NCBI RefSeq assembly: GCF_036373705.1
Contig: NC_089855.1
Span: 11,179,219 to 11,243,218, forward strand
From: Amia ocellicauda
Taxonomy: Eukaryota; Chordata; Actinopteri; Amiiformes; Amiidae
Length of the DNA stretch: 64,000 nt
Direction of reading: 5' to 3'
Every line of letters begins with the position of its first letter. Position 1 is the first letter of the stretch. The notes beneath the pieces were generated by a model, which saw only the letters and a list, made by a program, of their open reading frames with translations, was not told the origin of the DNA and ran no database searches. The position numbers and the translations under genes are program-made. Of the stretch, positions 1 through 64,000 are shown one piece after another.

Positions 1-922
1 CCCTAGTGGTTCGGACGCCTCTCCCTTTCTGTGGGACAATGGGGTGTGTTGAGTAAAGCTCAGGCAGACACTTCAGGAGCACAATTAGTGACTTCTGGCC
101 AGAGCAGCAGGAAAGTGACAACAGTGTGTTGGTGAAGACTGTTAAGTAGAGAGTCCAAAGAATAGAAATGTGAATGAGTCACTAAAATAATTTTAAAAAA
201 GGTGATCACTTAGAAATCCTTTCATCCCTCATAATCAGTTTGTTTGCATTACTTACCCTTTGCCTGCCTGCCTCCCTCGTGCTGAGATCAGGCATTCTCA
301 ACAACCAGACTTTCCTGTGTTTTATACACACGACAGTCAATTCTGCTCAAGCACTGAATTAAATCTGATCAGAGAAACGGGACTTATGAGTGTGTGTGAG
401 TCCCGACCTGATTGTGGTCAATTACACAGAACAGCCATTTCTTTGGAGGCCAACGTGAAACAAACTAATCTCATTGTGTGTGGTTCCTCCAAAATATGTG
501 GACATTTGAATAGACAAAACAATTGAATTGACCTACAGTGCCATTCAGGCTATAAGCTTTAACTTAAAAGTAAGCAGGATCTATCTGGAAGGGACTGGTC
601 ATTCACCACCATAGCCCTGCGTCTCCGTCACAGTTGGCTTCTGGCTTCGGGGGTCTGGGATAGGCGACTCCAGCGGGGGGCTTGTGCTCCTCCTTCTCCA
701 CAGACACTCACTCCTCTGTGTCCATGGCATCCAGGAACTCCTTCTGGGGTTCATCTGGGTGCTGCCATGGCAGAGGGACAGCACGCCAATACCGTGGAAG
801 GTGAAGTGGAGAGGAGGCAAACTTAATCTTCTGGCGCAGGAAGACCAGAGAGGTCTGGAGAGGATGTACAGAGAGATGAGATGAGGGTCTGAATGTAGCT
901 TGGTGCAGTCTGGTTGAGACAA
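1..922 (-). pseudogene. CCDC81-like gene copy, degenerate (inverted relative of the right-end gene)
   Basis: On the minus strand, about 854 down to 608 resembles the exon at 62443-62684. The peptide has a short FTFHGIGVLSLC stretch, like the second HU-type domain of CCDC81 proteins (family recognition from memory). After it the reading frame is lost relative to the right copy by small indels. A splice acceptor precedes it (AG at 855-856). Further along the minus strand, a 25-nt piece (281-257) with its GTAAGT donor matches the end of the right-hand second exon. The intron beyond it (about 250-120) also matches the right-hand intron (63049-63170), so this is a genomic duplicate and not a retrocopy. 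The rest of the gene would lie left of the window. It could still be expressed if it is spliced differently, but from this sequence it looks broken. Confidence 0.55.
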
Positions 923-3760
923 CGGTTCAAACAGAAATATACAAACACTCTAAGTACATAAAATACACATATATATTATTCATGTTTAAACATTCCACAT
1001 TTATTTAAAATAAAAACAACATACCCCCAACACAAAAGTAAATTAAGTGCACCTGTAGGTTTAAAACACGTGCAGATAAAATGTTATGCCTACATAAAAG
1101 GGCCTGTATATTGCTTGGTCTGTTCTAAATACATTTTTAAGTTTAATTGTAAAATATGTGCTGTAAGGCATTGTTAATGTGTCTTTCTATTCAAAATCTC
1201 ATCAGGGCAGAGAAAAGGCACTCATCCCTACATAGGCACTTGCAGTTATTCTACGGTAGACAAAATACAAAACATTACTGCAAACATTCCATATGGGCAC
1301 ATGAGTGTGAAGGGAAGTGGAAATTTCTGCTGCTTAGTCAATCTCTGCTATGTTTCTGGCAGTGATATGGCATTAATATCAAGTTATTTATGTGGACGTA
1401 GTACATATATAAACCACCCTCAACCTTAACCCTTCTTGTCTTGAATTATTTGTATTTAAGAGTGCGTATATTATTTGCTTACAGTTAGAGCAGCCATTAT
1501 TAAAGAAGTAGCTTTCCTAACTTTGTGTATTCCTTTGTTTACCCTTCAGTGATGGTTTGTATTTCATATTCGAAAGGGAACGTAAGGATATCTGTCATAA
1601 CCCTGGTTCCCTGAACTAGAAATATTAACCAACACTCCTTGTGGTCGCTGCGGTGCCGCACTGGCTTGAAGTAAAAAAGAGGAATAGCATCTGTTCCTAC
1701 ATAGTTTTATGTTTTCTGTTACATAGGAGTCAGTATCGTGAGATTTAGCATAGATGCTCAGAATTCTGAGTTCTTAAGGGGAATCATCCATTAGTGATGG
1801 TTCATATTTTGTACTTGAAAAGGAACTATCTAAAGGTTTTATTTTGTTATCAATTCATGTTATAATATCAGTCTAAATTCTGAATATAAATTCTGTATAT
1901 TTTTGTTTCAGAAACAAAATTTGCAATTTCCATGGATACAGGATAACTGCTGTAACACCCTGGTATAGCACTATCATTCCTAAAACCACTATGAAGATTC
2001 CAAAGCTATTCATTTGATATTTCTAAGTAAAGGTCATGATGACCACAAGTGATTGTAAGATATTTAACCACAACACACCCAGTTTTAGCCTTTAAATCAG
2101 ATGTGTATTCTTCCAAAAAGCAAAAGGTGTCCCCTAAAGAACTCCTCACTGTACTAACATCCCACTAAGGTTTCTATTATAAGAGGGCACATGCCTTTAT
2201 TAAAAATTTTCAAGCATCCTGCTCCCTTCAGTATGAGACCTTTTTTTTTTTTATCCCAAATTTAAATGCCAGTACCAGCACCATAACTTAACAAAAAGGG
2301 CTCTACATGTTCATGGTTGTAGGTCTGCTTTGATACTAACATTAAAAGCAGGAGCTGAAGTCATACAATTTTTAGAACTGTCACAATAATAGTATGAAAT
2401 CAGTAAATGTTAAGACCTGAAAATACATATTTTGGATGGCCACTAGGAGGGCTCCTAGATCTCAGAAACTAAATGCACCTGAAATATTATATTATATGGT
2501 TAATCATAGTTCCTCATAACTATCCTAAATACAAAATATGGAGGAATTTTGCTGACCTCCATTTTCCTGGTTTTCCAGATTGTGCCTGGTTTCTCATGCA
2601 GTAATACTTAATATTTACTCCATAGTAGGCCACTACTCCCACAAAAGATCTGTTATAAAAAGGAACCAATTTGTAAGACAAACAGTTTTTGAGAACAACG
2701 GAAAAAAGCAAGAGCACGATTAATAAACGAGTGAATTAAACAAATAAGTCATGAACAAATACGTAAAAAAACATAACTGAAACGAACACTGACACATTGC
2801 TGAACAAAACATCATATAAAATGGCATTCAATATGAACATATTTTCTCTCTGTGCACGAACAATAGCAACAAAAACAGTCTAAATGCCATAAAAACCGAG
2901 AAATAGATCAAAGGGGACACACTGTCCTGTGTTCAGTCCTGAGAGACAAGGTGTGTTTCTGATGGCACAGTCTGGGTGTGGTGGCCTGGAGAACACTTTG
3001 ATCCTCAGTTTATCGTCTCCATTGTTCAGTCTAGAGGCAGTCAGTGCTGTTTGGGGTCTGAATAAAGGCTGTTTTTTTGTTTGTGAATGGCACTTAAACC
3101 ACCACTAGGCCTATAAGGTGTTGACATTCTGGTGAGCACTGTCCTGCCTGTATCAGCACTGATGAAGTTTGATGGTGTACGCCTGTATGTCTGCATCACA
3201 CCATGAGTTGGGGGTGTAACACAATGGTTCAAAGAGAACAGACCAGAAAAACATGCCATGACCTTTTCAGTGTTCAGGCCACAATCCCCTAGAACATCTC
3301 CAGCCTGCTGTTGAAAGGTACTGGAGAGTATCCATTCAATAATTACAAAAGCCACTAACGCCAAAAGCATGGCCTATATCCTGTTAAATAGGCTATGCTG
3401 GGTGAATAGCTACTTTTTGTGAATTTAATATATATTGCCAGATCTGGTAACAGACAGGTAGATATTTTATTATCTTATTATCTTTATTATTATAGAACAA
3501 ATAAATATTACAGTACAGTAATTAGTCCTACATGATCTAATGAAGTATACCTTACATACCCTAGTCTATTTCAACTAAAGTATTTCAAGACTTTTACCTT
3601 GGGGTGGACAATAATAAAAAGTAATTTGTCAACATGATGTTAATGTGCTATAAATTGACAGGCCATCTATGTAGTGTATTATCACCTGCAGCAAATAAGC
3701 TGGAATCCCTAAAGAGAACAGCGCTGATTGCCTCCAAACCTTGTGTATTATAACCAGACC
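923..3760. other. AT-rich intergenic DNA, no gene seen
   Basis: I find no exon-like or conserved coding segment. Short ORFs here have no recognisable content. A motif recurs in direct orientation at 1549-1580 and 1795-1828 (GTGATGGTT followed by a CGAAAGGGAAC-like segment), which suggests an old interspersed element. A poly-T run lies near 2240. Confidence 0.5.
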
Positions 3761-3761
3761 T

Positions 3762-3895: not shown

Positions 3896-4081
3896 GTATG
3901 TAAACTAACATTTAGAAGCATGTAGCCAATACAGTGTCAGGTTTGCAGAATGATTGCCTTCCTGGATTAACTCATCCAAGAAGGTTTAATTTGTGAACGT
4001 TGTCAACAGGTTGAAATCCTAGAGATCAAGGTTCGTGATCTTGAGGCTCAACTTGTCGATCTGTGCTGTATTAGGGATATA

Positions 4082-5259
4082 CACTCACCTAAAGGATTAT
4101 TAGGAACACCTGTTCAATTTCTCATGAATGCAATTATCTAACCAACCAATCACATGGCAGTTGCTTCAATGCATTTAGGGGTGTGGTCCTGGTCAAGACA
4201 ATCTCCTGAACTCCAAACTGAATGTCTGAATGGGAAAGAAAGGTGATTTAAGCAATTTTGAGCGTGGCATGGTTGTTGGTGCCAGACGGGCCGGTCTGAG
4301 TATTTCACAATCTGCTCAGTTACTGGGATTTTCACGCACAACCATTTCTAGGGTTTACAAAGAATGGTGTGAAAAGGGAAAAACATCCAGTATGCGGCAG
4401 TCCTGTGGGCGAAAATGCCTTGTTGATGCTAGAGGTCAGAGGAGAATGGGCCGACTGATTCAAGCTGATTACAACTGAGGTATGCAGCAAAGCATTTGTG
4501 AAGCCACAACACGTACAACCTTGAGGCGGATGGGCTACAACAGCAGAAGACCCCACCGGGTACCACTCATCTCCACTACAAATAGGAAAAAGAGGCTACA
4601 ATTTGCACAAGCTCACCAAAATTGGACAGTTGAAGACTGGAAAAATGTTGCCTGGTCTGATGAGTCTCGATTTCTGTTGAGACATTCAGATGGTAGAGTC
4701 AGAATTTGGCGTAAACAGAATGAGAACATGGATCCATCATGCCTGTGCAGGCTGGTGGTGGTGGTGTAATGGTGTGGGGGATGTTTTCTTGGCACACTTT
4801 AGGCCCCTTAGTGCCAATTGGGCATCGTTTAAATGCCACGGCCTACCTGAGCATTGTTTCTGACCATGTCCATCCCTTTATGACCACCATGTACCCATCC
4901 TCTGATGGCTACTTCCAGCAGGATAATGCACCATGTCACAAAGGTCCAATCATTTCAAATTGGTTTCTTGAACATGACAATGAGTTCACTGTACTAAACT
5001 GGCCCCCACAGTCACCAGATCTCAACCCAATAGAGCATCTTTGGGATGTGGTGGAACGGGAGCTTCGTGCCCTGGATGTGCATCCCACAAATCTCCATCA
5101 ACTGCAAGATGCTATCCTATCAATATGGGCCAACATTTCTAAAGAATGCTTTCAGCACCTTGTTGAATCAATGCCACGTAGAATGAAGGCAGTTCTGAAG
5201 GCGAAAGGGGGTCAAACACAGTATTAGTATGGTGTTCCTAATAATCCTTTAGGTGAGTG
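4082..5259 (+). mobile_element. Tc1/mariner transposon, copy 1 (disabled)
   Basis: The inverted ends read CACTCACCTAAAGGATTATT and its complement, flanked by TA at 4080-4081 and 5260-5261. This is the Tc1 target duplication. The internal transposase ORF (from 4230) is broken. The element is nested in CR1 ORF1: reading across the TA joins the LINE frame on both sides, so the insertion was precise. Confidence 0.9.
4230..5227 (+). pseudogene. Tc1-like DDE transposase remnant (copy 1)
   Basis: The N-terminal paired-type helix-turn-helix (starts MGKKGDLSNFERG) and the catalytic DDE region are recognisable: WSDESRF, FQQDNAPCH and [12 protein letters not shown]. Compared with the copy at 33715, it has lost 33 nt in frame near 4469. 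An in-frame TGA follows at 4476-4478. It has also lost 10 nt near 4743, which shifts the frame. The last part (4739-5227) is intact through the terminal GGQTQY. It is non-functional. Confidence 0.85.
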
Positions 5260-6047
5260 TAGAAGAATTGGTCAATCAGACCATGAGAGAGATGATGTGC
5301 ATGCCAAAACCTAGGAGAGTTGAGACCTTAGAGCAGGACAGCGTAGAGAACTGCTGGGTTACAGTAGGTCGTAACCGCAGAAAAGGGCGTGCACAACCCC
5401 TAGAGACACCCCAAGAGCTAGAATTGCCCAACAGGTACCAACTGCTGGACACCGAGTTGGACAGTGACAGCTCAGAGGGTGATGGGGGGGCAGTTGAGCA
5501 CCAGAGCACCATGGTGCCCACTCCCCCCCAGAAGAGGGAGGTAGTTATAGTAGGAAACTCAATGCTTAGAGTTGTAGATCACACAGTGTGTTCTAGTGAC
5601 AAGGAGACCCTCATGATATCTTGCCTGCCTGGTCCTCAGGTTGCAGATCTCCCTAAACTAGTAGACGGGCTACTGGCCAAAGCCGGGGGGAATCCACTGG
5701 TCATGATCCACATTGTAACCAATGACATAGGAAAAGGTAGGACAGAGGTTCTGCAAGACAAATTTAAAGAGTTAGGAACAAAACTAAAGAGCAGAACCTC
5801 CATGGTACTTTTCTCTGAAACACTTCCGGTACCATGTGCCAGGCCAGGGAGACAGGCAGAGATTAGAAAGTTTAACACGTGGTTGAAAGCTTGGTGTAGG
5901 GAAGAGGGGTTTAGGTTTATGGAGCATTGGTCTTTCTTCTGGGATAGATGGGACCTGTACAAACCGGACGGTCTACATCTAAACAGAAGGGTGGCTAATG
6001 CATTGGGAGAGCTTATGTGCAGTGAAATTGAGAATCATTTAAACTAG
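5253..6047 (+). pseudogene. CR1 LINE ORF1, C-terminal esterase-like domain
   Basis: The long open frame encodes a low-complexity acidic region followed by an SGNH-type esterase domain, as in CR1-clade ORF1 proteins. Block I reads GNSMLR where GDS is expected, block III reads VTNDI where GTND is expected, and block V is DGLHLN with its Asp and His present. The active-site changes suggest decay. The N-terminal part, with a CERC pair and a heptad-like coiled coil, lies upstream of the Tc1 insertion at about 3990-4080. The first eight or so nucleotides of this open frame are Tc1 end sequence. Confidence 0.75.
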
Positions 6048-6133
6048 GAACCAAGGAAAGAAAACCAAGGGAAACTGCTAGTAGGAAAGTCCTGAAATGT
6101 GTGTAGCTCAATGCCAGGAGTACAAGGAACAAG

Positions 6134-8002
6134 ATGTTGGACTTGGAAGCCACAGTGCTAGCATGTGGCTATGATATTGTACGAGTGACAGAAACATGGC
6201 TTACAGAAAATGATAGAGATGAATACAAGTTGGAAGGATACACACAGTTTAGGAGAGACAGGCAAAATCGAAGAGGGGGTGGGGTAGCAATATATGTGAA
6301 AAATGACATTGAGGCAGAAGAACTCATATTAGATCCCAGTAATGAAATAGAATCTTTGTGGATGAAACTTCTGAACAAGAGATCTGGAGGATTAGTGGTA
6401 GGAGTGTGTTACAGACCACCCAACTCAGATATACAGAAAGATGTTGCATTGTACAATGTAATCAGGACTGCATGTAGCAAGGATGTGGCTGTTATCATGG
6501 GGGGTTTCAATTTCCCAAACATAGACTGGGAAAGCCCAGTGGGGACTACAGAAGCAGAAATAGAAATGGTTGAGATGGTAAATGACTGCTATCTAACTCA
6601 ATTTGTCAGGGAATCAACCAGGGAGAGTGCATGTATTGACTTGATCTTTTCAAATGACCAAGATAGAGTCAGGGGGACAGTAGTTAGAGAACCAATGGCA
6701 AATTGTGATCACAATATGGTTAGCTTTGAGGCATTCTTTCAAAAAACAAGTTCCAAGTCTAAAACAATGGTCTACAATTTTAGAAAAGCAAACCAAAGGT
6801 ATGAGGCATCACTTAGAAGAGGTAGACTGGAGCACATTGGATACAGAGTCAGTTGAAAATGGGTATATTTTAAGAATATACTACTTGAGGCTCAGGAGAA
6901 ATTTGTACCAACATTTAGCAAATTGAGGACCAAAAAACAGTGGCCAAAATGGTTTAATAGAGGTATGCAAAAAATATATAAAGAGGAAGAAAATGTTGTA
7001 TAGCACATAATAAAGGGATGGAGATGAAACAAAATACATAGAATATGTTGAGCTGCAAAGAGATCTTAAGAAAGGGATCAGGAAAGCACAGAGGGCAATG
7101 GAAAGAAACATAGCTCTTGGAGCTTAAACTAATGCAAAGAGCTTTTTTCAATATTACAGCAAGCGGTCAATAAAGGAGGAAGTGAAACAGATAAAGGGCA
7201 AAAATGGAGGTATCTTGGAAAACAAACAAGATGTGGCAAATGTTCTAAATGAGTATTTCACAGAGGTTTTTACAAAAGAAAAAACAGATAACATGCCACA
7301 GGTTAACAATCAGTCCAGTCAAATCCTAAGGGAGATCAGGATAAATGAGGAGGAGGTACTAAAGGGACTAGCAGAATTAAAAACCAACAAATCACCTGGG
7401 CCAGATGGGATATTTCCAACAGTACTTAAAGAAAAGAGGGTGTCGATTAGAGTAGTCGCTTCTAACTGGAGTGAGGTTGTTAGTGGAGTTCCACAGGGAT
7501 CAGTACAAGGGCCTTTGCTTTTTCTAATCTATATTAATGATCTGGACTCTGGGATAGTTAGCAACTTGTTAAATTTGCAGATGGTACTAAAATAGGTAGC
7601 TCAGCAGATACAATCTTGGCAGCACAGGCTATTCAGAGGGACTTAAATAATATTCAGTTGTGGGCCGACACCTGGCAGATGAAATTCAATGTGGACAAGT
7701 GCAAGGTAATACATGCAGGTAACAAAAATGTCCACTATAATTACACTATGGGAGGTACAGATCTAGATGAAGTAACGCATGAGAAAGACCTAGGAGTCTA
7801 TGTGGACTCCTCACTTTCTCCATCCAAACAGTGTGGGGAAGCAATAAAAAAGGCAAACAGAATGTTAGGGTATATTGTCAAAAGTGCAGAATTGAGAACA
7901 AGGGCAGTAATGTTCAGACTGTACAATGCACTAGTTAGAGCTCATCTGGATACTGTGGACAGTTCTGGGCTCCACACTTCAAGAAAGATATCGCTGCTCT
8001 AG
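6134..8002 (+). pseudogene. CR1 LINE ORF2: endonuclease and broken reverse transcriptase
   Basis: 6134-6856 encodes the AP-type endonuclease. ETWL, GGGVAIYVK, CYRPP and DHNMV are clear, but the catalytic GDFN reads GGFN. The reverse transcriptase follows in pieces: KSPGPDGI at about 7390-7410, then a large deletion, then SGVPQGSVQGPLLFLIYINDL at about 7480-7550. A frameshift leads into FADGTKI, where FADD is expected. A C-terminal region (7616-8002) follows. With the catalytic aspartates lost, the element is dead. Confidence 0.8.
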
Positions 8003-8900: not shown

Positions 8901-8972
8901 GTTATATATGCAGTGCAGCTCCAGGTGCTCCCGGCTGTGCTCTGTCGTGTTAATAAAAGAGACGCTGCTGGC

Positions 8973-9042
8973 GGTGATGCCCGGAATCGAACCAGGGCCC
9001 AGTGAGCTTGAGGCACGCGCTCTGCCACTGAGCTACGTCACC
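8973..9042 (-). tRNA. tRNA-like gene (anticodon loop reads CAA; possibly a pseudogene)
   Basis: The 70-nt minus-strand segment folds as a tRNA. The acceptor stem GGTGACG/CATCACC pairs 6 of 7, the D arm is GCTC/GAGC, and the T arm is CCTGG-TTCGATT-CCGGG. The A box (TAGCTCAGTGG) and B box (GGTTCGATTCC) are perfect, and a TTTT run lies about 15 nt downstream. The anticodon stem pairs only in its central three positions, and the loop CTCAAGC would give anticodon CAA. Leucine tRNAs have a long variable arm, and this one does not. The body resembles alanine tRNA, so it is best read as a degenerate or tRNA-derived gene with an intact Pol III promoter. Confidence 0.5.
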
Positions 9043-13947: not shown

Positions 13948-16900
13948 CGTTTAAATTGTGTTATTGTAATGGTAAATAATCACTTTGAGTGTGTTTTCAG
14001 CCTATATAAGACCATAAGAAAGTTTATAAACGAGAGGAGGCCATTCGCCCCATCGTGCTCGTTTGGTGTCCATTAATTGGATCAATAAAGTGATGCAAGT
14101 ATCCTATACAGTCTATTTTTAAATATGATAGCTAATGACGCGTTGTCAGCTGAAATAATCTTGTTTGTCTATAAAACTAAATTGGATTAATTTAATTGTG
14201 TCATTGTTTTATCCACCTTCAAAAGCTTTTTATCTCAAGTCTCTGCTTTCATATTATAGCGGGTTCAATTATGGAAAAAAGGCTTGAAAAAACAGTTCTG
14301 AAATACAGTGCATTTAACGCAACGCCATTGTAAAGGCTACTTTTGAAATGTGAAAATCAGTGTTGTAGAGGGACTGGGAGGACATCTTTATTGTGTATTT
14401 CATCACTGTAACAGTTAGTTAAAAAAGGAATAAGTTTCTTTACCCATCCCTACCTCCCAATAACCTCACCCTTCCCTCCCATCCAAGACCGTCCGTGGCC
14501 AGGAGACAGACAACCAACAGAATAAACAAACAATTACATGAACAGGTGGACAATTAGACAGACGGACCGATGACACGTCGACAAACTAAGATATAAACAT
14601 AAAATTGTGCGCATATAGGGGACCAATTGGGATGTATCACTCATGTCCAAGCATAAAAAAATCAACACAAACATAAATAATAAATAAATACATACATACA
14701 TTTTTAACAGACTGTTTGGAGTTATGTGTGTGTGTGTGCGCGCACGCATGAAGCATTAGTTATAATGGTAAATGGAAAGAATTGAGAAATTGTGCCCAAG
14801 TTTCATTAAATACATTTTCCTGGTTATTGTTGGTGGTTTTGTTGTTTTCCTGTGTAATATAATCTGTTTACAGGTTTAGCCATTGTGTGATGCTATGTTT
14901 GTGTCTGCTTTTCCAATTCAGGAGTATAGACTTCTTGGCAATAGCTAACGCTGTGAGAACTGAGTTGGGTTTTGTTCAGGGAGGTTGAGTGTGGATAGGT
15001 CTCTGAGCAGACATGTGGATGGAGATGTGGGATGCTGCAGCCCAAAAAAGATGATGTTTTGTTTATCACTTCTTGTCAGAAGTGTTGAGTTGGTGAAAGT
15101 AATTGTCAGGGGTGTTCAGCGTACAGTGTGAACAAGTATCAGACTCTATGAAACCCATTGTAAACATTTTGTGCTGTGTAATGTGTGTTCTGAGAATGAC
15201 TTGTATCAGTTGTGTGAGGGTGTTATTACTCATTGTAAATATATTCTTACAGATTGGTGTCCAGAAGCTGGTATCAGTGTGGATTGCTAAATCTTTTTCC
15301 CAGTCGCAGTTGGAAGGGATATTGATGAGTCATTTTTGGATAAGAGATTATATAATTATGATAATGGTTTCTTGGAGAGGGTTAATTTGTCAATTGTTTT
15401 TGTAATGATACCAAACTTGTGTTCCAACCATTGAATGCGAGGAGGTTATTATTTTCAAATATATTATGTAAATGTGTGATACCTTTCCTTTTCCAAATGC
15501 TGAAGACTATTGGGCTTTTATTAATCAGGAAGTCAGGATTCGACCCTATTGGGGTGAATTTGCAGGGTGTCATGGTAGAATGAGTGATTCTGTTAATTTT
15601 CTACCAAGCTGTCAGGGTTGTGGAGATTACAGTGTTCTTAAATTGAAATTTCTTTGTATACAAACTGTTCAATTTCTATCCATGGTTTGATCTGTTTATT
15701 TGAGTATAGCCATTTTGTAATATATTGTAGTTGGTTAGCCAGGTAGTAATGATAAAGATTTGGTGCACCCAGACCTCCTTGTAGTTTACTTGTATGTAGT
15801 GTGGTTAACTTAATCCCAGGTTTTCTATTCTTCCTGTAAAATTTAGTAATTATTGAATGTAAATTTTGGAACCAATTGGTTGTAGGTTGTACTGGGACCA
15901 TAGTGACCATACCATATTTTGGGTAGAATAGACATTTTAACTGTTGTAATTCTGCCAATAATAGAGTGGTATGTTCAGATCATCTTCTATGATTTTTATA
16001 AGTGGCATGAAATTGAGAATTTATATTGTGAAGTTATTTTGACGTAGGTTGAATGAATGTACTGCAACAGATCTGTATTTTTTATACATATTAAAGGAGT
16101 CTAAGTATTCAATTTACAAACAAAAAGAAAATGAAAAGAGAGCAGAGATTTACCCGTTGGTATACTGTACAGCTACACCATGTCATGTTTCTGAAATTTA
16201 TATTTGTATAATTTATTGCAGTGGATCTCTTGCGGTTTTCGATTGATCTCCATATCAGACTCAAAGCCAGGCATGACGCTAAATACAGGTCTCATATTAT
16301 CTCGTATTAATTAAATACTATGTCATATGGACATAATTTTTTCCAACACTTGCTTTCCAAAGCTTCTGTACTTTTGTTTTCCAATTCATTGCACAGATTA
16401 GGAGGTGGAACTTTATATTCTGTGCACCAGTCCAGTTATTCAGACAGCCAACACCTCTAGAAAAGATCAGTTGTTGAAATCATGGTTATTGTAGGATGCT
16501 GCTGGATATTTACTTTATATTTTCACAGGTTTCCATGTTTACCACAAGATAACCATATGGATCCCGGAGTCCTGTCTTTTGATTTCCATTGGATTAATTG
16601 TAGGAGGAATCATGTACTCTGTGAAGGAAGTGCCTCCAGCTGTGCTGAGCTCGAATGCCTTTTTCCTGTACATGCTGCCCCCCATTGTACTTGATTCGGG
16701 CTATTTTATGCCCACCCGACCCTTCTTCCAGAACATTGGCACAGTGTTGTGGTTTGCTGTGATTGGCACCCTGTGGAACTCCATCGGAATCGGAATCTCC
16801 CTTTATGCCATCTGTCAGATTGAGGCCTTTGGTATCCAGGACATTAACCTGCAGGAGAATCTGCTCTTTGGCGCTATTATCTCAGCGGTGGACCCCGTGG

Positions 16901-19900
16901 CAGTGCTGACAGTGTTCGAAGATATTAACGTGAATGAGCAGCTTTATATCGTGGTATTTGGGGAGTGTCTCTTCAATGATGCTGTCACTGTGGTAAGTGT
17001 CCTTCAGATACCGTACCTGAAGTGGAATCAACTACTGCATGCACCTATATACACCCATATCCTTCCCAGAAAAATAGTTAATCAAGTGATGGCTTGAATG
17101 GGGTTTGTTGGTGGACAGCAATCTTCTAGTCTTTTCACGGATTCTCAATTAGAATAAAGTTCAGACATTGACTGTCTTTGGTCTTTTGTAAATTGAAGCA
17201 GGTTTTCCTAAAGGATTTGCCTGTATTGAGCGCCATCCATTTTGCCCCTCTACCCTGACAAGCTTCCCCATAACATGATGTTGCCCCCACCATGCTTCAC
17301 AGTTGGGATGGTGTTACCTAGGTGATGTACTGTGTTGGGCCAGACATAATTTGCATTTAGTTACAAGGTGGTGCTGTTTACCTTCCACTTCTAAATGATT
17401 GTCTTGACTCTGCTCTAAGATGTATTCAATGCCTTTGAAATCTGTTTATACCCCCGCTTGATCTGTGCCTTTGCACAACTTTATCCTGGAGTTGTTCATG
17501 GTAGTATATTTGCTACCTAACTGTGGGCCTTACAGAGACAGGTGTATTTAATCTGAAAACATGTGAACCACTTTTATTGTGCACAGACTCCATTCAACAT
17601 ATCGTATGAATTCTGAAGGCAATTGTTTGCACCTGAGCTTATTTAGGCGTGTCATAGCAAAGGGCATGAATATTCCTCTAATGAACACTTTTCATGGTTT
17701 TATTTTTAATTGATTTACTTTAATTAAAATTCAGAAACTATGCATTTGAAAAGAAGTGATACACTTTTTGTGGAATCCCATGGAAAAAGAAAACTGTTTG
17801 GTTCTGGTACTACATTTTACACATCATGTTTTGCATAGGGAGTAAAGTTTTTTGCAAACTTGTGTTTTTGGGGCAGTTTAACAAAGTAAAAAAAAAACAT
17901 AAATGTACTACCAGTAGATAAGTGCTTAATTGAAAGAACTTCAATTGATTGATGTTCTAGTGTTCAGGCACACACATTGTCAAAACCTTTATTGCTTCAA
18001 GAACATGTAGAGCAACTTCACGATAAACATATCTTTCCACAGATGTGCAGGATGATTTCTATTATTTTGTCTTGAAATGTTCTAGCAATTTGTTAATTCA
18101 ATTGTGACATTTTTAAGGTGCAAATCTAGCCAAAGAAAACTCAGGTATGGAATAGAGCAATTCAGATAATTTGTATTATATTTGTACTTAAATGTCTAAC
18201 ATTGAAAAATCAAGTTTGTTATGTTTGGAGTAAGCATTAATAATAAATGTTTTTTTTCCTGGAGCAATCCAATTTGAAAATGAGCCTGCATGCTAGTAGT
18301 GTTTAAAACAATGTAAAAAAACATCTAACTTGCAGAGTTAGTACTAAGTTGCGTACTAGCTAGTACAGTACTATCTCAAGATCATCCCCAGGTAGTACGC
18401 TGCATTCACTTTTTGCAATTGACCCATATGCAATTTCTGTGTTTTGATAGCTAATCAGTATTGACCAACATTCCTAAGATACTAAGATTCTGATTGGTTT
18501 CCACATAGTGACAGGTGTGGCTGTTAGGCTTTTCAGGTCTGATCATATGACTTACTTTTATCCTTATACCTTTTACAAGCCCTATAAGAGCATGCCAAAA
18601 TAACTGATTAGTTATGATTCAGGTCTGTTTTAATATTTTGCAGAGGAACATGATTTTTGCTAACCACCATTCTGTGTTTTCTCACAAGTCAATTAATTCT
18701 AGCTTTTTCTAGTTCAGAACATATATGGATATGGTTATACCTTCATACCTTCATAACTAAAAATAGTTAAATGAGACCCTAATAAATAAACATTTTTGTA
18801 GGATAATAGATTTAAACACTCAATAGTTTTTTTGCAATGTTATAATCTCGCTATTCAATCTCTAGCTAATTTACATCAACAGCAGATAATAAATGGATGA
18901 GGACTGGAAGTAATTCATGCTGATCCATTACCTTTTATTTTCCTTCATACATTAGAAAATCATTACTGGTATTTTAGTTATTGAACTTTTTAAAACTAAA
19001 CAAAACCTAAACAAAGGGGCTGTTAAAATGGAAAATATAGACTCCCTCACTCCCATAGGAATCTCTAAAATGAACGGAGACTGTGATTTGTATAGATGCC
19101 ATCAAACAGGTTTTGTAACTCCCTTGTTTTCTAAAAGTTGGCATCAGCAGTCTGCATGCAGGTGGGAGTGATCACAGACATGTGAGTCTCACGGAAACTA
19201 GCTATTGAAGCTACGAGCATTGTCATTTCAGAATATCAAGGACATTTCTTTGGATAATAAAGGGAAATATGATACTAAGATACTACTAAGATACTTGACA
19301 AACAATGTGGTCACTGTTGCGAGAGAACCTGAATTAACGTTTCTTTCCAACTTCCTTGAGGTTCTTTTGAGAATGAGTTCCACACCTCGACCCTTCTGTT
19401 GCTTCATTAGCAGTGATCTAAAATAAAGACCTCAGGCTAGAAAAAGAAAACCGTTCTGACAGACAGGGTTGAGAGACAGCAAATGCTCAGGTGTGGCCTC
19501 CATGCTGACCCTACAGAACATGAGTATCTTCATGCTCATTCCCTGAGGCAGCTGTTAAGTATAAAGGGGGGCAGGTGTAATGGAGCTCATTATTATCAGC
19601 CTTAAGATGATATCGCACCCCGCATCCTCCTCCTTTCATGGGATGACTTTATGATGTATTGGTTTATTTATGGTGTGCCATACCCACGTAAATCAATTAA
19701 CCAGTAATGCCAGTGCTAAATTATCTAAAAATAAAACAAAATAATTTTTACCTTTCTCAAACAATCTGTAGATTACCATTATTTCACCTTTAACCTGCTC
19801 TTTCTGTCATTCTCTCAGGCATTATACAACATGTTGACTTTTGTGGCAGAAATGCCTGAAGTGGAATCCATTGATGTCTTCCTTGGCTTTGGAAGGTTTT

Positions 19901-22900
19901 TCATTGTCGGCTTAGGAGGGGTGCTCTTTGGGTTTCTGTTCGGGTTCGTGGCAGCGTTTACCACCCGGTTCACCACAAATGTCAAAGAAATCGAGCCTCT
20001 CTTTGTCTTCATGTACAGCTACCTGGCCTATTTGATAGCTGAGCTGTTTTCCCTATCCAGCATCATGGCGTAAGTATTCATAAAAAGTAGAACAGAAGCT
20101 GTGTGTGTGTGTGTCTGTGTGAAAGTGTATGTATGTAAAAAAATAAAAATTAACCTTTTGAGTGCATGTGTATAATGCCGGAATATGATTTATCTGGATT
20201 AAACATGCACGTTTTTGTAAGTATCTATACATGCATTTCCCTCTAACTGTAAGTGATTTCCTTCATGTTTTATGACTTGAATATTATCACTGTGCAATGA
20301 TGTGCTCTGCTCCTTTTCAGCATTGTAACGTGTGCAGTGACCATGAAGTACTATGTAGAGGAGAACGTGTCTCAGAGGTCCTGTTCGACTGTCAGGCATG
20401 TCATCAAGATGTTTGGCACTGTCTCCGAGACCCTCATCTTCTTCTTCCTGGGAGTTGTGACCATTACAAGTGATCACGAATGGAACTGGGCTTACATTTG
20501 CTTCACCATCTTCTTCTGCTTCTTTTGGCGAGGCATAGGTAGGGAGTTCGAGTTCACTTTGTTTCTTTGTTGATGTGTTACTCCAATGTGCGTGGGTACG
20601 ACAGGTTTGGCTGTAGGCATGCCGGACTTCAGAAGTCTCTTGAATTAAATATACACGAGGAAGGCCACTACTTCCTGCTAGATTAATTGAATAAGGGTTT
20701 TGGATTACTTGACCTCAGAGAAGTGATCTGGGGTCACTCCTCTGTAGTTAGTAGAGGTGACATAAAATTGGTAGTAGGTAACATTTATGCACAGGTTATT
20801 TGATGATAGTTATGATATGCATCTGTAAAGATCTGATCTTATCTTATACTTTCATGTTATTCACTGTAATGTGGGAATGGCTTGATGTTACTGATGCTAT
20901 CCAGGTAATTTGGGGAATACTATATAATCCAACTTCTAAGGTTTAAGAGTGGATGAAGGAACCTGCTAAATTTTATCCAAGCTTTTTGTGATGGAGAGAG
21001 GGTGGTCTTTGTGTTACAGTTATTATATATACACCGATCAGCCATTACATTATGACCACTGACAGGTGAAGTGAATAACAGTGATAATCTCGTTATCATG
21101 GCACCTGTCAGTGGGTGGGATATATTCGGCAGCAAGTGAACATTTTGTCCTCAAAGTTGATGTGTTAGAAGCAGGAAAAATGGGCAAGCGTAAGGATCTG
21201 AGCGACTTTGACAAGGGCCAAATTGTGATAGCTAGACGACTGGGTCAGAGCATCTCCAAAACTGCAGCTCTTGTGGGGTGTTCCCGGTCTGCAGTGGTCA
21301 GTACCTATCAAAAGTGGTCCAAGGAAGGAAAAGCGGTGAACCGGCGACAGGGTCATGGTCGGCCATGACTCATTGATGCACGTGGAGAGCGAAGCCTGGC
21401 CCGTGTGGTCCGATCCAACAGACCAGTCAGGGTGCCCATGCTGACCCCTGTCCACTGCCGAAAGCACCTACAATGGGCACGTGAGCATCAGAACTGTACC
21501 ACAGAGCAATGAAGGAAGGTGGCCTGGTCTGATGAATCATGAGTTCAAGGTGTTGACTTGGCCTCCAAATTCTCCAGATCTCAATCCAATCGAGCATCTG
21601 TGGGATGTGCTGGACAAACAAGTCCGATCCATGGAGGTCCCACCTCGCAACTTACAGGACTTAAACGTCTTGGTGCCAGATACCTCAGCACACCTTCAGA
21701 GGTCTAGTGGAGTCCATGCCTCGATGGGTCAGGGCTATTTTGGTGGCAAAAGGGGGACCTACACAATTATAAGGTGGGTGGTCATAATATTATGGCTGAT
21801 CGGTGTAATAGTGAGTACAAATCCTTGGGTACAAATGTTTGATCCCATTCGGTTGTGTATTTTTTGTTTTTGGTATTTTGCTGGAGTTCATATGTGTGCC
21901 CCTAATTTGATTGTCATTATTATCTGATAGTACAGAAAGAACTATGCAGCTTCTGCTAAAAATATTATGCAAAGTTTAACTCTTTATTTTTCTCCTCCCC
22001 ACTGTCCAGGTGTCCTTGTCTTAACACAGATTATCAACCCTTTTCGCACCATACCCTTTAACTTCAAAGATCAGTTTGGCTTGGCGTATGGTGGTCTTCG
22101 GGGCGCTGTGTGCTTCGCTCTGGTCTTTTTGTTGCCTCACAGTATTGGACGAAGGAATTTGTTTCTCACTGCCACCATTGCCGTGATCTTATTTACTGTC
22201 TTCATTCAGGTAATGTACACCTTTTCTAAAATCCATGCTTTTACATGCTAGAGTTTTAAGCATTTTGTTAATATAGGTAACATATCAGTTGTCCTTTCAT
22301 TGACTGCAGCCATACAGGAGTTTGGAGGTGTTAAATTAGGAAATTATTCTAAACATTACAATCCTAGTAAAACCTTATTACTTACCTTTAGTTTAGGTCT
22401 TTAGAGAGTCATTGAAAACACAGTGTTGGACTGCAAAACCGGTGGCCCTACCACATTCCTGGTTTTCACTCTTTAGATGGGTATTAGTCTGCTCCCCCTG
22501 CTGACTATGGATGGGTGACAAAATGCCCAGTTGTTGGAGGAACATTGTGCATTAATCCACCCTGCCACAATAATGCTGCTAGAAGTTACTTTAGTGAGGA
22601 GTTGGTTATTGCTGGTTGTCATTAGAATTTCAGAAATTCCTCTTAAACTTAAACAATGTAGTCACAGCTTTTTGTACCAAAATAAGGGCCTTAAGTAATA
22701 TGCGATACAGACATTATTACTCTGCAGTATGTGATGCACAACCTCATTTCACTTGGACTTCAGCTTTAAAGACAATGATCTCTTCTTTTTTTTAATATGC
22801 AGGGTATAACCATTCGGCCTTTGATTGAGTACATGAATGTCAGGAGGACAAACAGGAAACTAAATACTATTAATTTTGAAATCCACAGTCGGGTAAGTGG

Positions 22901-33530: not shown

Positions 33531-33566
33531 TATATGTTTTGCAATCTACCTACAGGGTCTCATATA

Positions 33567-34787: not shown

Positions 34788-34789
34788 TA

Positions 34790-35364
34790 TATAAGCTCTA
34801 ATATATATACATACATACATATATTGGCTGATATATATTGTAGTGTCTCAGGCGGGTTCCCCCTCATCTAGAGCTACATGAGGTGTTAGAGAAAACAGGA
34901 TTATTCCTGTTGGGAACTAGTTCCTCTCACATATCGGCGTAGTAATACTCTATGCAACAGGAGTGCTATGGCACTTTGTACTAAGAGGGGTCCCTACTAA
35001 ATAAAGTCCCCATCATGCATTTATGTTATTGGTTGTGGTGGGTCATCATGTAGGGTGCACGTGTGGGGATAGGTGGACTAGTGGCACGATGGTTGGACCT
35101 GCACTGTAGTCACGCATTGGTGGGATATATATAGGGGGATTTGGCGGGGTATTGTTTAGTTGGTGCCCTAAAAGATTGGAGCTACCTCAGCGACCATTTT
35201 CCCTTTTACTTTGCTAAACTTCGTAGACTTAACAAACCCCCTATTTTTTCCTAATTATAGCCTGATTTGCATTATTGTTACAGTATATTAGAGCCTGTAG
35301 TTAGATTGCAAAAGTTTGGGTATACATAAAGTAGCTCCTCATCAGAAAAAAGTTGGGGACCCCT
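34790..35364. other. Intergenic, AT-rich, no gene seen
   Basis: AT-rich sequence containing a GTGGGATATATATAGGGGGAT-type stretch near 35120. I see no gene, splice site or repeat with clear ends. Confidence 0.4.
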
Positions 35365-36668: not shown

Positions 36669-41622
<4,954 letters not shown>

Positions 41623-44628: not shown

Positions 44629-44774
44629 TATTTAAAAGAGTGTAACTTCTGTGCTCCTACCAACTTATTTTAGTGTCACCCTTCCTTGTGCTGTCTGTGG
44701 AGGCCAGTTGCCAGTTATTTTTGCTTGGCCACACCTCTGAGCAGTTAGGATCTTCCATCAATATCCAAAAATAG
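44629..44774 (+). promoter_or_regulatory. Putative tmem182 promoter: TATA-like box and MEF2/CArG-like site
   Basis: TATTTAAAAG (44629-44638) could serve as a TATA box. CCAAAAATAG (44765-44774) is one base from the MEF2 consensus read on the minus strand. Muscle expression is known for TMEM182, so a MEF2-like site is plausible, but a single AT-rich match is weak evidence. Confidence 0.3.
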
Positions 44775-44899
44775 ATGGACAGTTCCATTTGGCAGTTCAA
44801 TGTGTTTGGAGAGACCAGCACACGAAAGCCAACTGTGACAAGAACTCAGAACTCCTTCCAGCTGAAGACAGAAAGCAGTGCAGGGCAAAGCCAACAGAT

Positions 44900-45585
44900 A
44901 TGAAGCTTAGTGTTGCATTGTTCTTTGCGGGGTTTTTTGGAGCTCTGGGAACCGTGTTTTTCTTGGTGTCATTTGGGACGGATTACTGGCTCTTGGTGTC
45001 TGAAACTTGTTCACCTAATGAGACAGCAAGCAAAACAGTAACTGAGGTGTGTTTTTGGGGGGGGGGATTACTAAGCTGTCTGTTCGTTTGGGCCAAGATC
45101 ACTAACTATTTTCTAAAATTTTAACAATTTAAGCTAAGTTATTAAAAATATACAAGTGTGTATGTTTGTGTCTATATAGTAATATATACTGTACTATAAA
45201 CTGTACAGGATTATCATTATTTTTTATTAATACCATATTTTATATATATTTTTAACTCTATAGTAAGAATAAGAAGTAATGTAGTCTATAAGAAAAAAAA
45301 TTGAAAAACAATTAACATATTTTGGCCATTATTTGACAGGGGTTGGTACAATTCATAAGCTCATAATTCTTTAATTATTAGTAATTAAGTACTATATTGA
45401 TTTGTGACCTTTTTTATGAAATACCTTCTTGCAGAAATTTCCAGAAGCTTATTATGGTTTATGTTATTAAGTTTGTATTCATTTTACCAAACTATAGTAC
45501 ATACATATTATTAAGGAGTATTTACTATGTATTACCCTTAGATAATTGATAAAAACAATTATGTAAGTTGAATAATAATAGAGAG

Positions 45586-45630
<45 letters not shown>

Positions 45631-48600
45631 TTACATATTGGTTGGGAAACTTCAGTGTGGATATATGGTTCAACGTCATTGTGCAGTAAGTGTAAAATGA
45701 AAAGTTATTCAGGGGATGTACAGTAACTCGGTAAGAGCACATGAAAAAAAGAAAGAATCGGCAGCAGCTGTTATCTGTGGAGCTTACTGTGCAGCTGGGC
45801 TAGCTGATTCAATGTGATGGATATAGAATCGACTGACACCCAGATATTCGTTTTGCCTTTCCTGTCTCAGATCATTGAAAGTATCTACACCCTTCATTTG
45901 TCGACCTCTGGTGAACACTAGAACAGAAAGGTTATGGACAAGGAAAGTCAAACATCTGGTGATGATAAAGCAGGGTTCTCACAGTTCTTGCAACATCCAA
46001 ATGCCTTTGCTTAACAAACGCCTACAGAAACAGCCATTGAATTCTAGCTTGTCGACAACTGGAGGTGATCTGCTTAAGACAATGAATCTGAGGTTGTGTG
46101 ATGCATTTTATTCTTTTTTTTTAGCGTGGAGATGGGGTATTGTCACAAAAGGACACTGATACGACCTTTTACCACGAGGGCCTCTTTTGGAGATGCACTT
46201 TTGGTGGAAAAATGGGAGAGGACAGCATGTGGAAGTTCTGGTTCAGTAAGTAATCTCTAACACATATTCAGTTAAACATACTGAGTTTGCATTAAAAAGC
46301 ATATTTAATTTTCACACAAGTAACTACAAAAAACATGAAAAGAGACAAGGAAGAGGAAGGAAACAACCAGCACTTTCACCCAAAGTGATTATCTTGTGAA
46401 TCACCTAATTCCAGAGAGGCTAGTCAACTCTACCATGTTATATTTTATATCCCTCCTGCTTTCCATGCACTGATGTTACACAGGAGCATTTTAAGAAGGA
46501 CATTGTTTTAGCTGGAAAAATAATGACTCCAATGGAAACATTCTTGCCCCAAACTGCTGACACATTCTGTTAGATTTGTAGAATGTCCACCTCTTAAACC
46601 ATGGGTTAACTTTTACCTGGACCAAGTTGGCTATACCTTCTTAAGTTTTTCTTTTCTTAATCTTAATTAAAAAAAGCCTTTCAACACTTTAAAAACACAC
46701 TGGTATCATAACCACTACAAAGATAGGTGTGGTTGTCTTGCATTATAAGCAAGTGCACCACTGGCAAGAAAATCCAATAAAGCTGCAATTGCAAAGCCAT
46801 GTGCATCTAGGGCCTTGAAGTCAGCATCTTTAAATGAAACAGATAAGTGGGAGGATACAAACCCAGTAATCCCAAATTTGGAAAAATTCACATGATATAT
46901 TTTGGAAAGCTGGCTCTTGTACTCTCTCATTCCCATGCCAAGACTAATGCAATATGGCTTAGGCTTGATTCAATGGTTGAAATTAGTGCTGTACTGAATG
47001 ATTTTTAAATAAAATAAAATACAATAAAAATATTTTTTTTTCGATTAATCGATTTACTTGATTTTTATTGTTTTCATTTAATAATGGCTTCCTTACTGGA
47101 TGATATTCTGTAATATCAACTCTACAGTATTAATTTGGTCCTCTCACTCTGTTCATGTTCTGTATCCAAATAGCAAGTATGAACTAAACAAAACACATGA
47201 CATTGAGAGTTCATTTACCTCTGATAAGTTAAAAGTTTGCTTTGGCATTTACTGTCCAAAGGAATTGACTTCTTCAGGATCACCAGCTGCTTAGCTATCC
47301 CCATTATGTTGGCTTAAGCAATGCTATGAGCTTTATTGCATTAAACCTTACATCCTGGTATCACATAAATGAATGTTCTTCTTTTTTTTAGCCAACCAGC
47401 CACCATCAAAGGTCTGCTCACATGCCTATCTCTTTCCATTCCCAACTTCAGCAGAGACTAACAATTCCACGGCCTATTCTCCTGTCAGTAAGTACTGCCT
47501 GCTGGCCAGTGTGCTCTGCAATTACTCACACACAGGAAAGGTATTTTATCCAGACACAGTCAGAAATACTGATATACAAAATGCTAGGGTTTTCTTTAAG
47601 ATACTTCTTATTTTTTTCAACTGCTCTGTTGTCATTTATAATCTACAGAACTTATTTTAAAATAAGTATATGTTATGCAGTGGATCCAGTCCAAGAGACA
47701 ACCCAAGCATGCTGTTGGTGTTGTGTGAAGCAGCAGGAGTCTGCAGTTTGAAGGGTCATTTGCAGCTCAGCTGGGATCAGTCTTAGCAAACCTACTGCAT
47801 CGCATGCTTACGTGCAGCTGCCCTGGTCTTTCCCATTCAGTGCAGGGGATAAAAATATTTTAAAAAGCCACATTGTAAAAGTAATTTTGACTTATGAATA
47901 GAGAGTAAATCATATAGTAAATGAAACCACCATGCAAATGGCATCCTAATGTAGCAACAGAACACCTCAGCACATACTACTGAGCACAGAGCGCTATTTC
48001 AATAGAAGTCATTGAGATAGAACAGTATGAAAAACATCTAGGGGTTTTCACACATATAGTAAAAAAACAGCATTTTTTCACACCATGGCCATGTTTGTCC
48101 TTGTTCAGGTGTTTCTTTCTTTTTTTTTTTACCACAAAATGAATTAATGTATATGTATTTGTATTTAAATTAAGTATACATTTTCTTAATACAACACCAT
48201 GGGGAACAAATCCATTGTTATACAGCAATATGGTGTGTGTAAATTCTAGAAATGAAATGCTTGAGGTTTAGATGTTTGTAGAAAGTTAACTGCATGTTAG
48301 TTAAGGACACAGACTCTTCAGAAGTTGTGCTAATGGGCGGGCTGAGCTGAGACGTCTTGGCTTTTCATGAAAGCAACTGTGAAATCATACTTGGTACAGA
48401 TACCCTAATGGGCAGTAGTCTTTGACATCCTGGTTGCCATATCAAGATCATCAGTGCGGGATGCTTTTTGTTTTGCAGTCTACCGAGGGTTTTGGAGTAT
48501 CTTCATGCTTATCGGAGTGGCCGCTGTAGTCATAGGTGGATTCGTCATCATCTGTGCTGCTCCATTTGCCAGCCATAAGCTTTATAAAGCAGGTGGAGGG

Positions 48601-49526
48601 CTATTCTTAACCTCTGGTAAGTCACAGTACTTGTGTGATTAAGTAAGTTCCATTTCACTTTAAAACATTTGATAAATCTACTTGCCTCCAAGCTGTGATC
48701 AACTTAAACAGACATGGATTAATTTTAAAGAGGTATTCATCATTTTGTGTGTCCGTTACGTGAAGAGAAATGATGTGCATGACAACAAAATCATTTCAAT
48801 AGTAAGTCTAGGTGTTCTTTCAGAGTATGGATTTCATAACATCCTTTTTTTCTGTGACAACATGGCATTAAAACCTGCCATTGGAAAAAAATAGAAGTTG
48901 TTGATTGATTTAGTGATCAGTAGGGCTACATAGTAAAGCACATCCAGAGTACTGTTGTTAAGTAGCAGACTTGACAAAAGCTGCCCTCTGATCAACCTCT
49001 ATGTTTAGTACATTCTATCACTTTATTGTGGACCCTAGCACGATGACGTAGTATATTTTGGAGCAGTTCCACTTGCCATGGTGAAGATTGTGTTGTAATT
49101 TGATACCACAACCTTTAAAACAAGGATTACTTGTGCTGGTTGGAAGGAAGCAGAGTGTACAGTGTCAGTTCTATGCAGATCAGGCCACATGAAATGAAAT
49201 TAATCATCATTAAACCACATTTCTGGGGCCATTCTAAGTTAGGTATTGTATAGGTTGTTTACAGCAATAAAATGGATCTTGTTTTGTACTCTCTTTTTGC
49301 AGGGCTGTTCTTCCTTGCAGTCATCGTCATGTATGTCATCTGGGTCCATGTCTTAGATGGGCTGACTGAGTACACCATTCAAAAGCAGTCCCAGTGTAAA
49401 GACTTCACCGTCAACGTCAGATATGGCTTGTCCTTCATGTTTGCACCTGTGGGAGTCTTCTTTTGTCTGCTGGCTGGCTTGCTCTTCCTTTTAATAGGAC
49501 GTACAGTGCAGTTGCATTACAATTAA
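44900..49526 (+). CDS. tmem182: Transmembrane protein 182, 5 exons, complete
   Basis: A four-pass claudin-superfamily protein expressed in skeletal muscle and fat (family knowledge). The exons are 44900-45046, 46125-46245, 47392-47487, 48479-48616 and 49303-49526, all GT-AG with matching phases, giving 241 residues (about 229 recalled for human). The first membrane segment is residues 6-26, followed by a large extracellular loop. Trp30, the GLFWRC motif (residues 68-73) and Cys98 fit the claudin W-GLW-C-C signature. NET (residue 40) and NST are possible glycosylation sites. Exon 4 holds the second helix ([19 protein letters not shown]) followed by [17 protein letters not shown]. Exon 5 holds the third and fourth helices. 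An in-frame ATG at 44789 would add 37 residues; I prefer 44900 because the hydrophobic helix starts there. Confidence 0.9.
45589..45628 (+). repeat. (GA)n microsatellite in tmem182 intron 1
   Basis: About 20 GA units. Confidence 0.9.
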
Positions 49527-53950: not shown

Positions 53951-53954
53951 CATA

Positions 53955-54238: not shown

Positions 54239-54239
<1 letters not shown>

Positions 54240-56318: not shown

Positions 56319-56319
<1 letters not shown>

Positions 56320-56357
<38 letters not shown>

Positions 56358-59362: not shown

Positions 59363-59370
59363 CATATAAC

Positions 59371-61435: not shown

Positions 61436-61509
61436 CTGCTCAAAATAATTAAGGGAACACTTAACATTGATGTCTGAACTTGGAGTGTTCCCTTCATTTT
61501 TTTGAGCAG
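61436..61509. mobile_element. 74-bp mini Tc1-type element (CTGCTCAAAA ends)
   Basis: Inverted ends CTGCTCAAAA/TTTTTTGAGCAG are flanked by TA at 61434-61435 and 61510-61511. The core at 61461-61487 matches that of the CAGCTCTGG elements with one mismatch. Confidence 0.75.
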
Positions 61510-61511
61510 TA

Positions 61512-62442
61512 TATAATATATAATAAAGGGGGAGGGGGAGCTGATATAAAGAATGGGGTTTATCAGAGGGAAGGAAGTAAGACTAAAACAATGTAACCCA
61601 TAAAACCTTAAAACAGCAGGAATAAGAAGGAGGACACTGCACAGTCAGGAGGCGGTCTTACAGTAGTCATTCAATGCAGCGTCTTTCAAATCACTTTTCT
61701 CCACAGCAAAGACCACTATTTTCTACAGTCCAATAATCCGTTGAGCCCGTTCTCGGTGCCCATGTTTAACTGAGCTCTCTCTCAGAGCTACGCGTCTCCA
61801 CACGCACTCAGCCCCTCGGTCTGTGCAGTCTCTCCCTCTTTATTCCCCACTCGCCTTCTGGCAAACATCACCCTAATTACATACCAATTATCACCCATAC
61901 ATTTCCACGAAGACATATCAATTCAGTTTGGACATTACAAACGCAGTATATTTTATAGGCCAGGCCTTTTTTATTTAAACATTCATTTAAAAAGTGGGGG
62001 TAGATATTAAAATACATTTCAGTGTGGGTATGTCTTTGGTGACTTTGGTGAGCAACCTTGGTTGTAAAAACAAGCCCAAAACAAGCCCAACCTCCCATGA
62101 GCGTAATTTGCGGTCACATGGACAATAAATTCGGTAAAGATGGTTTACTGTCAAAAGTCATACATCATGGCAAGACTGAGCACAGCAACAAGACACAAGG
62201 TAGTTTTAATGCATCAGCAAGGTCTCTCCCAGGCAGAAATTTCAAGGCAGACAGGGGTTGTCCAGCAGTGTCTGTGAAAAAATAAATACAATAGTCACTC
62301 TTCAGTATCATGGTCTCCTGTCTTGCCCAACCAGAGAGAGGAATTGAGTACCCTGGAGGAAATCAAGAAGCACAATGTAAAACCATGTTTTTTCTGCCCA
62401 ATCTATGGAGCGGGTTGTTGATGTGTGCCTTCCCATCTGCAG
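61512..62442. other. Upstream flank of the CCDC81-like gene
   Basis: No exon is recognised before the acceptor at 62441-62442. The plus-strand open frame from 62310 reaches the exon without splicing, but its first 40 or so codons do not look conserved. Confidence 0.35.
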
Positions 62443-63993
62443 GCGATGTGCAGGTCGTCCCTGGGAATTTCACAGAGCTGCTCCTCCGAGGCATGGCCGC
62501 CCAGGGCAGCATCTTCACCCTCGCCGGGATTGGCGTGCTGTCCCTGTGCAACGGAAAAGTCCTGATGAACTTCAGGAAGGAGTTCCTGGATGCCGTGTCC
62601 ACAGTGGAGCGAGGGACCGTGCAGAAGGAGGAGCACAAGACCCCGCTGGAGTCGCCTCCCACAGACCCCTGCAGCCGGCTGTGACGGAGGCGCAGGGCCA
62701 AGGAGGTGACTGACGAGCCCCTTCATTGTTCATTGCTCATTGTTTAATTAAGGCTAATTAACTGAATGGCACTGCAGGTCAATTCCATTTTTTTTTTGCG
62801 TCTGATTGAACTCAGTTCTCTTGTTTGTAATGCTGCCTGTGTGAGAAGATGTCTGATCTAGGCTGCATCGATGAGTGCAGGGGTGGAATATGCCTTTTAC
62901 ACAAGCTTTGTGTTCATGTCTCAGAGCCCCAGGATGCGAGGCAGGTCCTCCGCTCACAGGCACTGCTGCCAGGAGAGACTGGAGTGAGCGAGGAGCCGGA
63001 CAGGAGCCTGAAGCCCACCACAGCACGAGGGAGGCAGGCAGGCAAAGGGTAAGTAATGCTGACAGACTGATTACAAGGGATGAAAGGATTTCTAAGTGAT
63101 CACTCCTTTTTTTATTTTCGTTCACATTTCTATTCTTTGGACTCTCTGCCCAACAGTCTTCAATTCCCAATAACAGGCCCCTTAAACATGCAGGAGCCAC
63201 CTGTGGGACACGGAGTGAGCAGCCATGACTAAGTCACATTTAAACACTCCATTTAAATATTCGTTTTTTTCAATCCACCTCAAACAGTGCTTGAATAATG
63301 TCTCCCTGATGTCTGGAGCAAGATGAAGTCTTTCTCTGAGTCATCTGTAACCTTCTCCTGCTCAGTTTACTCTCTCTCCCTTTTTACTCTTACTGAATCT
63401 CCCCACACAGTGAGATGAAAGGCATTAAAATTCCTTCTCCTCTCTCCCGGCAAAGACTGGACTATTCCTTGCCATCTCGGTGTCATGTCCCTGGGCTGGA
63501 GCAGAAGGCACAGACACTGGCGTCCAGTCCTCCCGTCCCCCTGGGCTCTGAATGTGCCGGCCATGAGCGTGCAGGACAGGTGCGTACCGGTGCCAGTACG
63601 GGGGGTGTGCACAATAATAAGTTGTTGTTGGAGAGGAAGAGGCAGGAGAAGAGAACCCTGACACCTGCTGGTGTCTGGAATCGACTCTTCCTTATCTGAG
63701 CCTGTGACCCTGCATGCCGTCCTTTAGGTGAGGGAGAGACCAGCAGGTCTGCAGGACCAGAGAAGGCCCATGGATCAGCCAGGCCAGAGAAGGCCCATGG
63801 ATCAGCCAGGCCAGAGAAGGCCCACAGACCAGCCAGGCCAGAGAAGGCCCACAGACCAGCCGGGCCAAAGCAGGCCCACAGACCAGCCGCACCAGGAGCC
63901 ACGCAAGAGAGTAACCCTCATAAGAGGATCTCTCTTTAACAGCATTCTTGTTCAGATTCAGGAGCAGGAGGCGCTCAGGAAGACCAGGAAGGA
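62443..63993 (+). CDS. CCDC81-like gene, partial: HU-type domain and repeat-containing tail
   Basis: Four candidate exons: A 62443-about 62684, B 62925-63048, C 63411-63579 and D 63728-63993. B-C and C-D have compatible phases, and D ends in phase 2 at a GTGAGT donor, so the gene continues past the window. Exon A encodes VVPGNF, then FTLAGIGVLSLCNGK and MNFRKEFLDA, which I match to the HU-like domain of CCDC81 proteins from memory. Its donor is unclear: the frame stops at 62682, so A may be spliced earlier or be a terminal exon. Exon B gives EPQDARQVLRSQ and exon C GEMKGIKIPSPL. Exon D has five 9-residue repeats and then RVTLIRGSLFNSILVQIQEQEALR. An inverted relative lies at 1-922. Confidence 0.5.
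63756..63890 (+). repeat. Coding 27-bp minisatellite, five units
   Basis: Five tandem copies of a 27-bp unit encode QRRPMDQPG or QRRPTDQPG. The period is a multiple of three, so the reading frame is kept. Units 1-2 have Met and units 3-5 Thr, and the fifth unit is the most diverged. Confidence 0.9.
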
Positions 63994-64000
63994 GTGAGTG

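Follow-up and report, generated by a model that had tools for sequence, protein, structure and literature searches.

The 64,000-nucleotide stretch of Amia ocellicauda (bowfin) DNA considered here, which we call the window, begins and ends with sequence resembling CCDC81, and the two pieces lie in opposite orientation on either side of a block comprising slc9a2, mfsd9 and tmem182. This arrangement raises the question whether the pieces are each other's duplicates. An earlier note had taken them for a fairly recent inverted duplication that brackets the block and could promote inversion of the intervening 60 kb. We designate the piece at the window start LEFT and that at the window end RIGHT. 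Our sequence comparisons point to a different answer: with a probability of roughly 90%, LEFT and RIGHT would be separate, decayed members of a CCDC81-like family dispersed through the bowfin genome, and their inverted arrangement around the three genes would be incidental.

The block itself was examined for protein domains. Exons of a Na+/H+ exchanger (slc9a2 by the name given in the note) lie at 16495-22251 on the plus strand, where all three exon ORFs scanned match PF00999. The mfsd9 exons occupy 36669-38572 on the minus strand; both ORFs match MFS_1, one of them under the cut-off, and for 88% of its length the ORF at 36669-37556 shows 100% identity to Amia calva MFSD9. Claudin-like exons (named tmem182 in the note) are located at 44741-49526 on the plus strand, with PF13903 in both exon ORFs, one under the cut-off. 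The order and strands of these genes presumably agree with human 2q12.

The inverted, collinear similarity of the window ends was confirmed by self-BLAST. Positions 62513-62794 (+) matched 806-516 (-) with 77.1% identity in an alignment of 293 columns (E 4.2e-56); a second match, with 85.6% identity in 153 columns (E 1.3e-43), joins 63021-63162 (+) to 284-133 (-). The sequence words that had been quoted for both ends are present in the LEFT/RIGHT pairwise alignment, in the order given. When flanks of 30 kb and 40 kb were added to the window, the collinear series proved to extend beyond it and to span roughly 3 kb altogether at either end, a match above chance and longer than first described. 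Outside the window, LEFT positions of about -4 to -73 pair with RIGHT 63172-63241 (97% over 70) and about -191 to -404 with 63425-63648 (83% over 226), and beyond these, small matches continue to about -2.2 kb versus 65.1-65.2 kb. Introns are present in both pieces in the alignment, which bears out the proposed copying at the DNA level and rules out that LEFT and RIGHT are retrocopies. The similarity is thus real but, as the family context reveals, ordinary.

The assignment to a CCDC81-like family is suggested by a PF18289 match of RIGHT under the cut-off and was borne out by matches to P0001, a protein designated "coiled-coil domain-containing protein 81-like [Amia ocellicauda]" that was the sole hit among 416 candidates and whose best genomic fit is a locus on C7 (9.716-9.718 Mb, 91-97%). 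The PF18289 profile exceeded its cut-off at 23 places in the genome, 12 of them in C6:12.11-12.25 Mb, and the DNA kinship of LEFT and RIGHT with copies passing this cut-off is clear. Outside the window, the family occupies at least 13 neighbourhoods on seven contigs according to the DNA, profile and P0001 searches (103 rows in the protein search): C1 (25.45 Mb), C2 (33.99), C3 (36.05-36.07), C6 (5.71, 6.01, 12.1-12.25, 15.29-15.31 and 32.95), C7 (9.72), C10 (11.58 and 28.66) and C19 (19.86-19.89 and 27.17). The window's own chromosome harbours seven family neighbourhoods when LEFT and RIGHT are counted, and on such a chromosome it is nothing unusual for two relics of the family to face opposite ways. 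Many genomic copies, named in the note itself as a finding that would tell against a pair, were what both ends returned: RIGHT (62443-63170) gave 47 genome match rows, including itself and LEFT, and LEFT (1-900) at least 61 among the 40 of 585 candidates scored, including itself, RIGHT and nine rows of a dispersed repeat described below.

One of these neighbourhoods is a tandem array of CCDC81-like units around C6:12.10-12.26 Mb, 0.87 Mb downstream of RIGHT on the same chromosome. Seven RIGHT-like copies were observed there at a spacing of 20.5-23.9 kb, and array stretches longer than 2 kb are 96.7-99.3% alike. Two HU2 exons lie 2,086 bp apart in five of the seven units, and HU2 is open at all 12 array places. 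In each of the seven units the match to P0001 residues 169-296 contains one TGA, which is possibly intronic. Gene arrays that have expanded in tandem and are accompanied by dispersed pseudogene fragments are a general kind of genomic arrangement, and the bowfin case resembles them in its spaced, near-identical units and its relatives elsewhere; nothing stands out as different, the bowfin members being found on six contigs besides that of the array.

RIGHT is a CCDC81-like copy at 62271-64000 (+) that extends past the window end as far as about 65981. Its HU2 exon (62443-62705, limits by eye) matches PF18289 (HU-CCDC81_euk_2) with E 4.3e-5 and 23.9 bits, under the cut-off of 26.1, and at profile positions 40-72 only. 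Exon B follows at 62925-63048 (limits likewise by eye) and ends at a GTAAGT donor. A further exon match at 63451-63585 (+) is 80% identical to P0001 residues 170-214, and another exon with a repeated RRPxDQPGQ motif at 63728-63996 (+) is 68% identical to residues 213-296, the protein match reaching 64003, past the likely donor. In total, the P0001 pieces on RIGHT span HU2 to the last residue, which falls beyond the window at 64675. Two lesions are evident. Relative to the array copies, HU2 of RIGHT is without 63 bp (21 codons) at about 62478-62480, seen against P0001 as a gap of 21 residues, and the BLAST rows place three to five shared bases at the deletion joint. Moreover, in a search from 58001 onwards RIGHT is array-like only from 62271, past the position of the HU1 exon. 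Several further gaps, from gain or loss on either side, separate RIGHT from the array up to 65981.

LEFT is likewise decayed. It occupies 1-806 (-), with matches that extend some 2.2 kb beyond the window's left edge, and comprises an HU2-exon remnant at about 806-600 followed by intron, and the end of exon B at about 284-257 with its GTAAGT donor and a short intron (limits by eye, all on the minus strand). Within its HU2 exon the reading frame shifts and a TGA stop occurs. P0001 aligns to LEFT as two overlapping segments that differ in frame, one of which contains a stop, and also to a further exon. Neither of the two frames tried for the LEFT exon yielded a Pfam match at E 1. The family similarity of the HU2 exon stops at about 806, where the exon edge is truncated at a dispersed repeat at 796-900 (-). 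In the genome match rows for query positions 1-105, this repeat has at least nine copies at 85-91% identity, on C1, C5, C7, C9, C18, C26, C28 and C29, among the 40 of 585 candidates scored.

The HU1 profile (PF14908, HU-CCDC81_euk_1) exceeded its cut-off at 15 genome places, all outside the window, and not one of 21 whole-genome matches at E 10 fell within the window. No HU1 domain being found there, LEFT and RIGHT are family relics and not full members. As in CCDC81, array copies contain the HU1-end and HU2 exons in this order, whereas LEFT and RIGHT are fragments, with the HU1 exon found in neither and HU2 truncated or deleted. From these lesions we infer that both are probably dead. RIGHT, whose later exons are well kept and match well, could still be transcribed.

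To place the two pieces among their relatives, part A (the HU2 exon and the following intron, 23 rows) and part B (the end of exon B, the short intron and beyond, 17 rows) were compared on fetched DNA, which covered nine of the 12 array HU2 exons and six of the seven array B pieces. The copies at C3:36.05, C19:19.886, C6:5.71, 6.01 and 32.95 and C10:28.66 were excluded from the trees. In part A, RIGHT is 95.7-97.8% identical to the nine array rows and 78.5% to LEFT; in part B, the values are 95.0-95.8% (six rows) and 89.1%. The trees agree: RIGHT groups with the array with support of 96/99 (A) and 89/90 (B), and LEFT stands outside without a firm sister. Joining LEFT and RIGHT in a clade lowers lnL by 64.3 in part A, where such a clade is rejected (p-AU 2.8e-5), and by 15.1 in part B, where rejection at 0.05 is narrowly missed (p-AU 0.059). 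All pairs were also ranked by likeness, the array being represented by a single row; a required overlap of at least 100 columns removed 19 of 105 pairs in A and 8 of 66 in B. The LEFT-RIGHT pair came 65th of 86 in part A, with 50 of 70 interchromosomal pairs closer. In part B it came 15th of 58; 12 of the 47 interchromosomal pairs were closer and 35 less alike. The shorter part B carries less weight than part A. Both parts combined, LEFT and RIGHT look like two among many cousins.

These comparisons bear directly on the reading put forward in the note. A recent inverted duplication of one piece from the other, bracketing the 60-kb block, would fit a similarity that is inverted, collinear and intron-containing. 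It is nevertheless very improbable, with RIGHT closest to the array, the joint clade rejected in part A and many pairs from different chromosomes more alike. Identities of 78.5% and 89.1%, together with lesions in both pieces, also do not suit the label "fairly recent". What survives of the earlier interpretation is the family name and the copying at the DNA level; that LEFT and RIGHT form their own pair, that it is recent and that it is likely to promote inversion does not.

A second alternative would be an old local inverted duplication whose sisterhood was masked later, either because RIGHT was gene-converted by the array or because RIGHT founded it. The position of LEFT outside the array group without a firm sister would be expected, RIGHT is array-like along its length, and the p-AU of part B is 0.059. 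On the other hand, each of parts A and B of RIGHT, taken as a whole, is nearer to the array than to LEFT, an extra event would be required, and dispersal on seven contigs plainly supplies two copies on one chromosome. We therefore regard this alternative as improbable, albeit somewhat less so than a recent duplication.

If LEFT and RIGHT are separate members of a dispersed family, as we prefer to think, the family would have spread through the bowfin genome by segmental duplication, a mode suggested, in place of retrocopying, by the kept introns. RIGHT would derive from the gene unit that also builds the C6 array, with descent probably leading from an array-like unit to RIGHT, and would afterwards have been truncated at its 5' end and suffered the deletion in HU2. 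LEFT would be an older member, cut at the dispersed repeat and frameshifted.

An inverted pair that recombines is expected to be nearly identical over some hundreds of base pairs. The longest exact run common to LEFT and RIGHT is 40 bp, which also argues against a recent pair, and the trees do not make the two closest relatives. The region contains far more similar inverted sequences, in the form of Tc1-like copies of about 1.2 kb at 96-99%. The copy at 33562-34792, whose ORF at 33715-34572 contains transposase domains, matches 67457-66227 in inverted orientation with 99.0% identity over 1,231 bp, and that at 4077-5261 matches 67457-66230, again inverted, with 95.8% over 1,228 bp; in both cases the second partner lies outside the window. 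If anything recombines here, these copies would be better rearrangement substrates than the CCDC81-like fragments. Altogether, five Tc1-like copies (4077-5261 and 33562-34792 in the window, and about 66225-67461, 77163-78398 and 84344-85576 outside it) are 95.5-99.4% alike; they are spread over about 82 kb and occur in either orientation.

The window ends may be debris of a larger process. Counting seven array units, five of them with a doubled HU1-HU2 exon pair, and at least a dozen scattered relatives, we tentatively suggest a lineage-specific, still homogenising CCDC81-like expansion in bowfin, perhaps with a role in cilia, the centrosome or the germ line; we hold this to be possible without favouring it. 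Out of 1,712 candidates, a protein search with P0001 returned only P0001 itself and a single protein from gar, with eligibility limited to 0.55-1.75 times its length and E 1e-5, limits by which longer or more distant relatives are missed, so that this search does not establish lineage specificity. A protein of gar that bears the name CCDC81 shares just 45% identity with P0001, in an alignment covering 46% of P0001. In the open-licence literature we found no earlier report of a CCDC81 family expansion in bowfin, and the main text of the bowfin genome paper (PMC8423624) does not contain "CCDC81", "slc9a2" or "tandem dupl". The expansion could be of use for work on HU-domain proteins or for bowfin annotation, the latter because RIGHT-like fragments can be mistaken for genes.

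Some further observations concern individual stretches. The part represented by 133-284 and 63021-63162, with the end of exon B and the short intron, is better conserved among family members than the HU2 exon part: LEFT is about 92% identical to the array in the former, versus 77-81% in the latter. Part B was considered as a dispersed repeat and dismissed, its listed matches sitting at family loci, unlike those of 796-900. The ORF at 5253-6047 (264 aa) matches GDSL lipase/acylhydrolase with 35.8 bits, above the cut-off. The ORFs after it look LINE-like by eye, but a Pfam scan of one of them (7562-8002) gave no match. Part B is not a known non-coding RNA either: the single window match of Rfam at gathering scores is a tRNA at 8972-9042 (50.4 bits), predicted by ARAGORN as tRNA-Leu (CAA) at 8969-9042 (-), which is either a gene or a tRNA-derived element.
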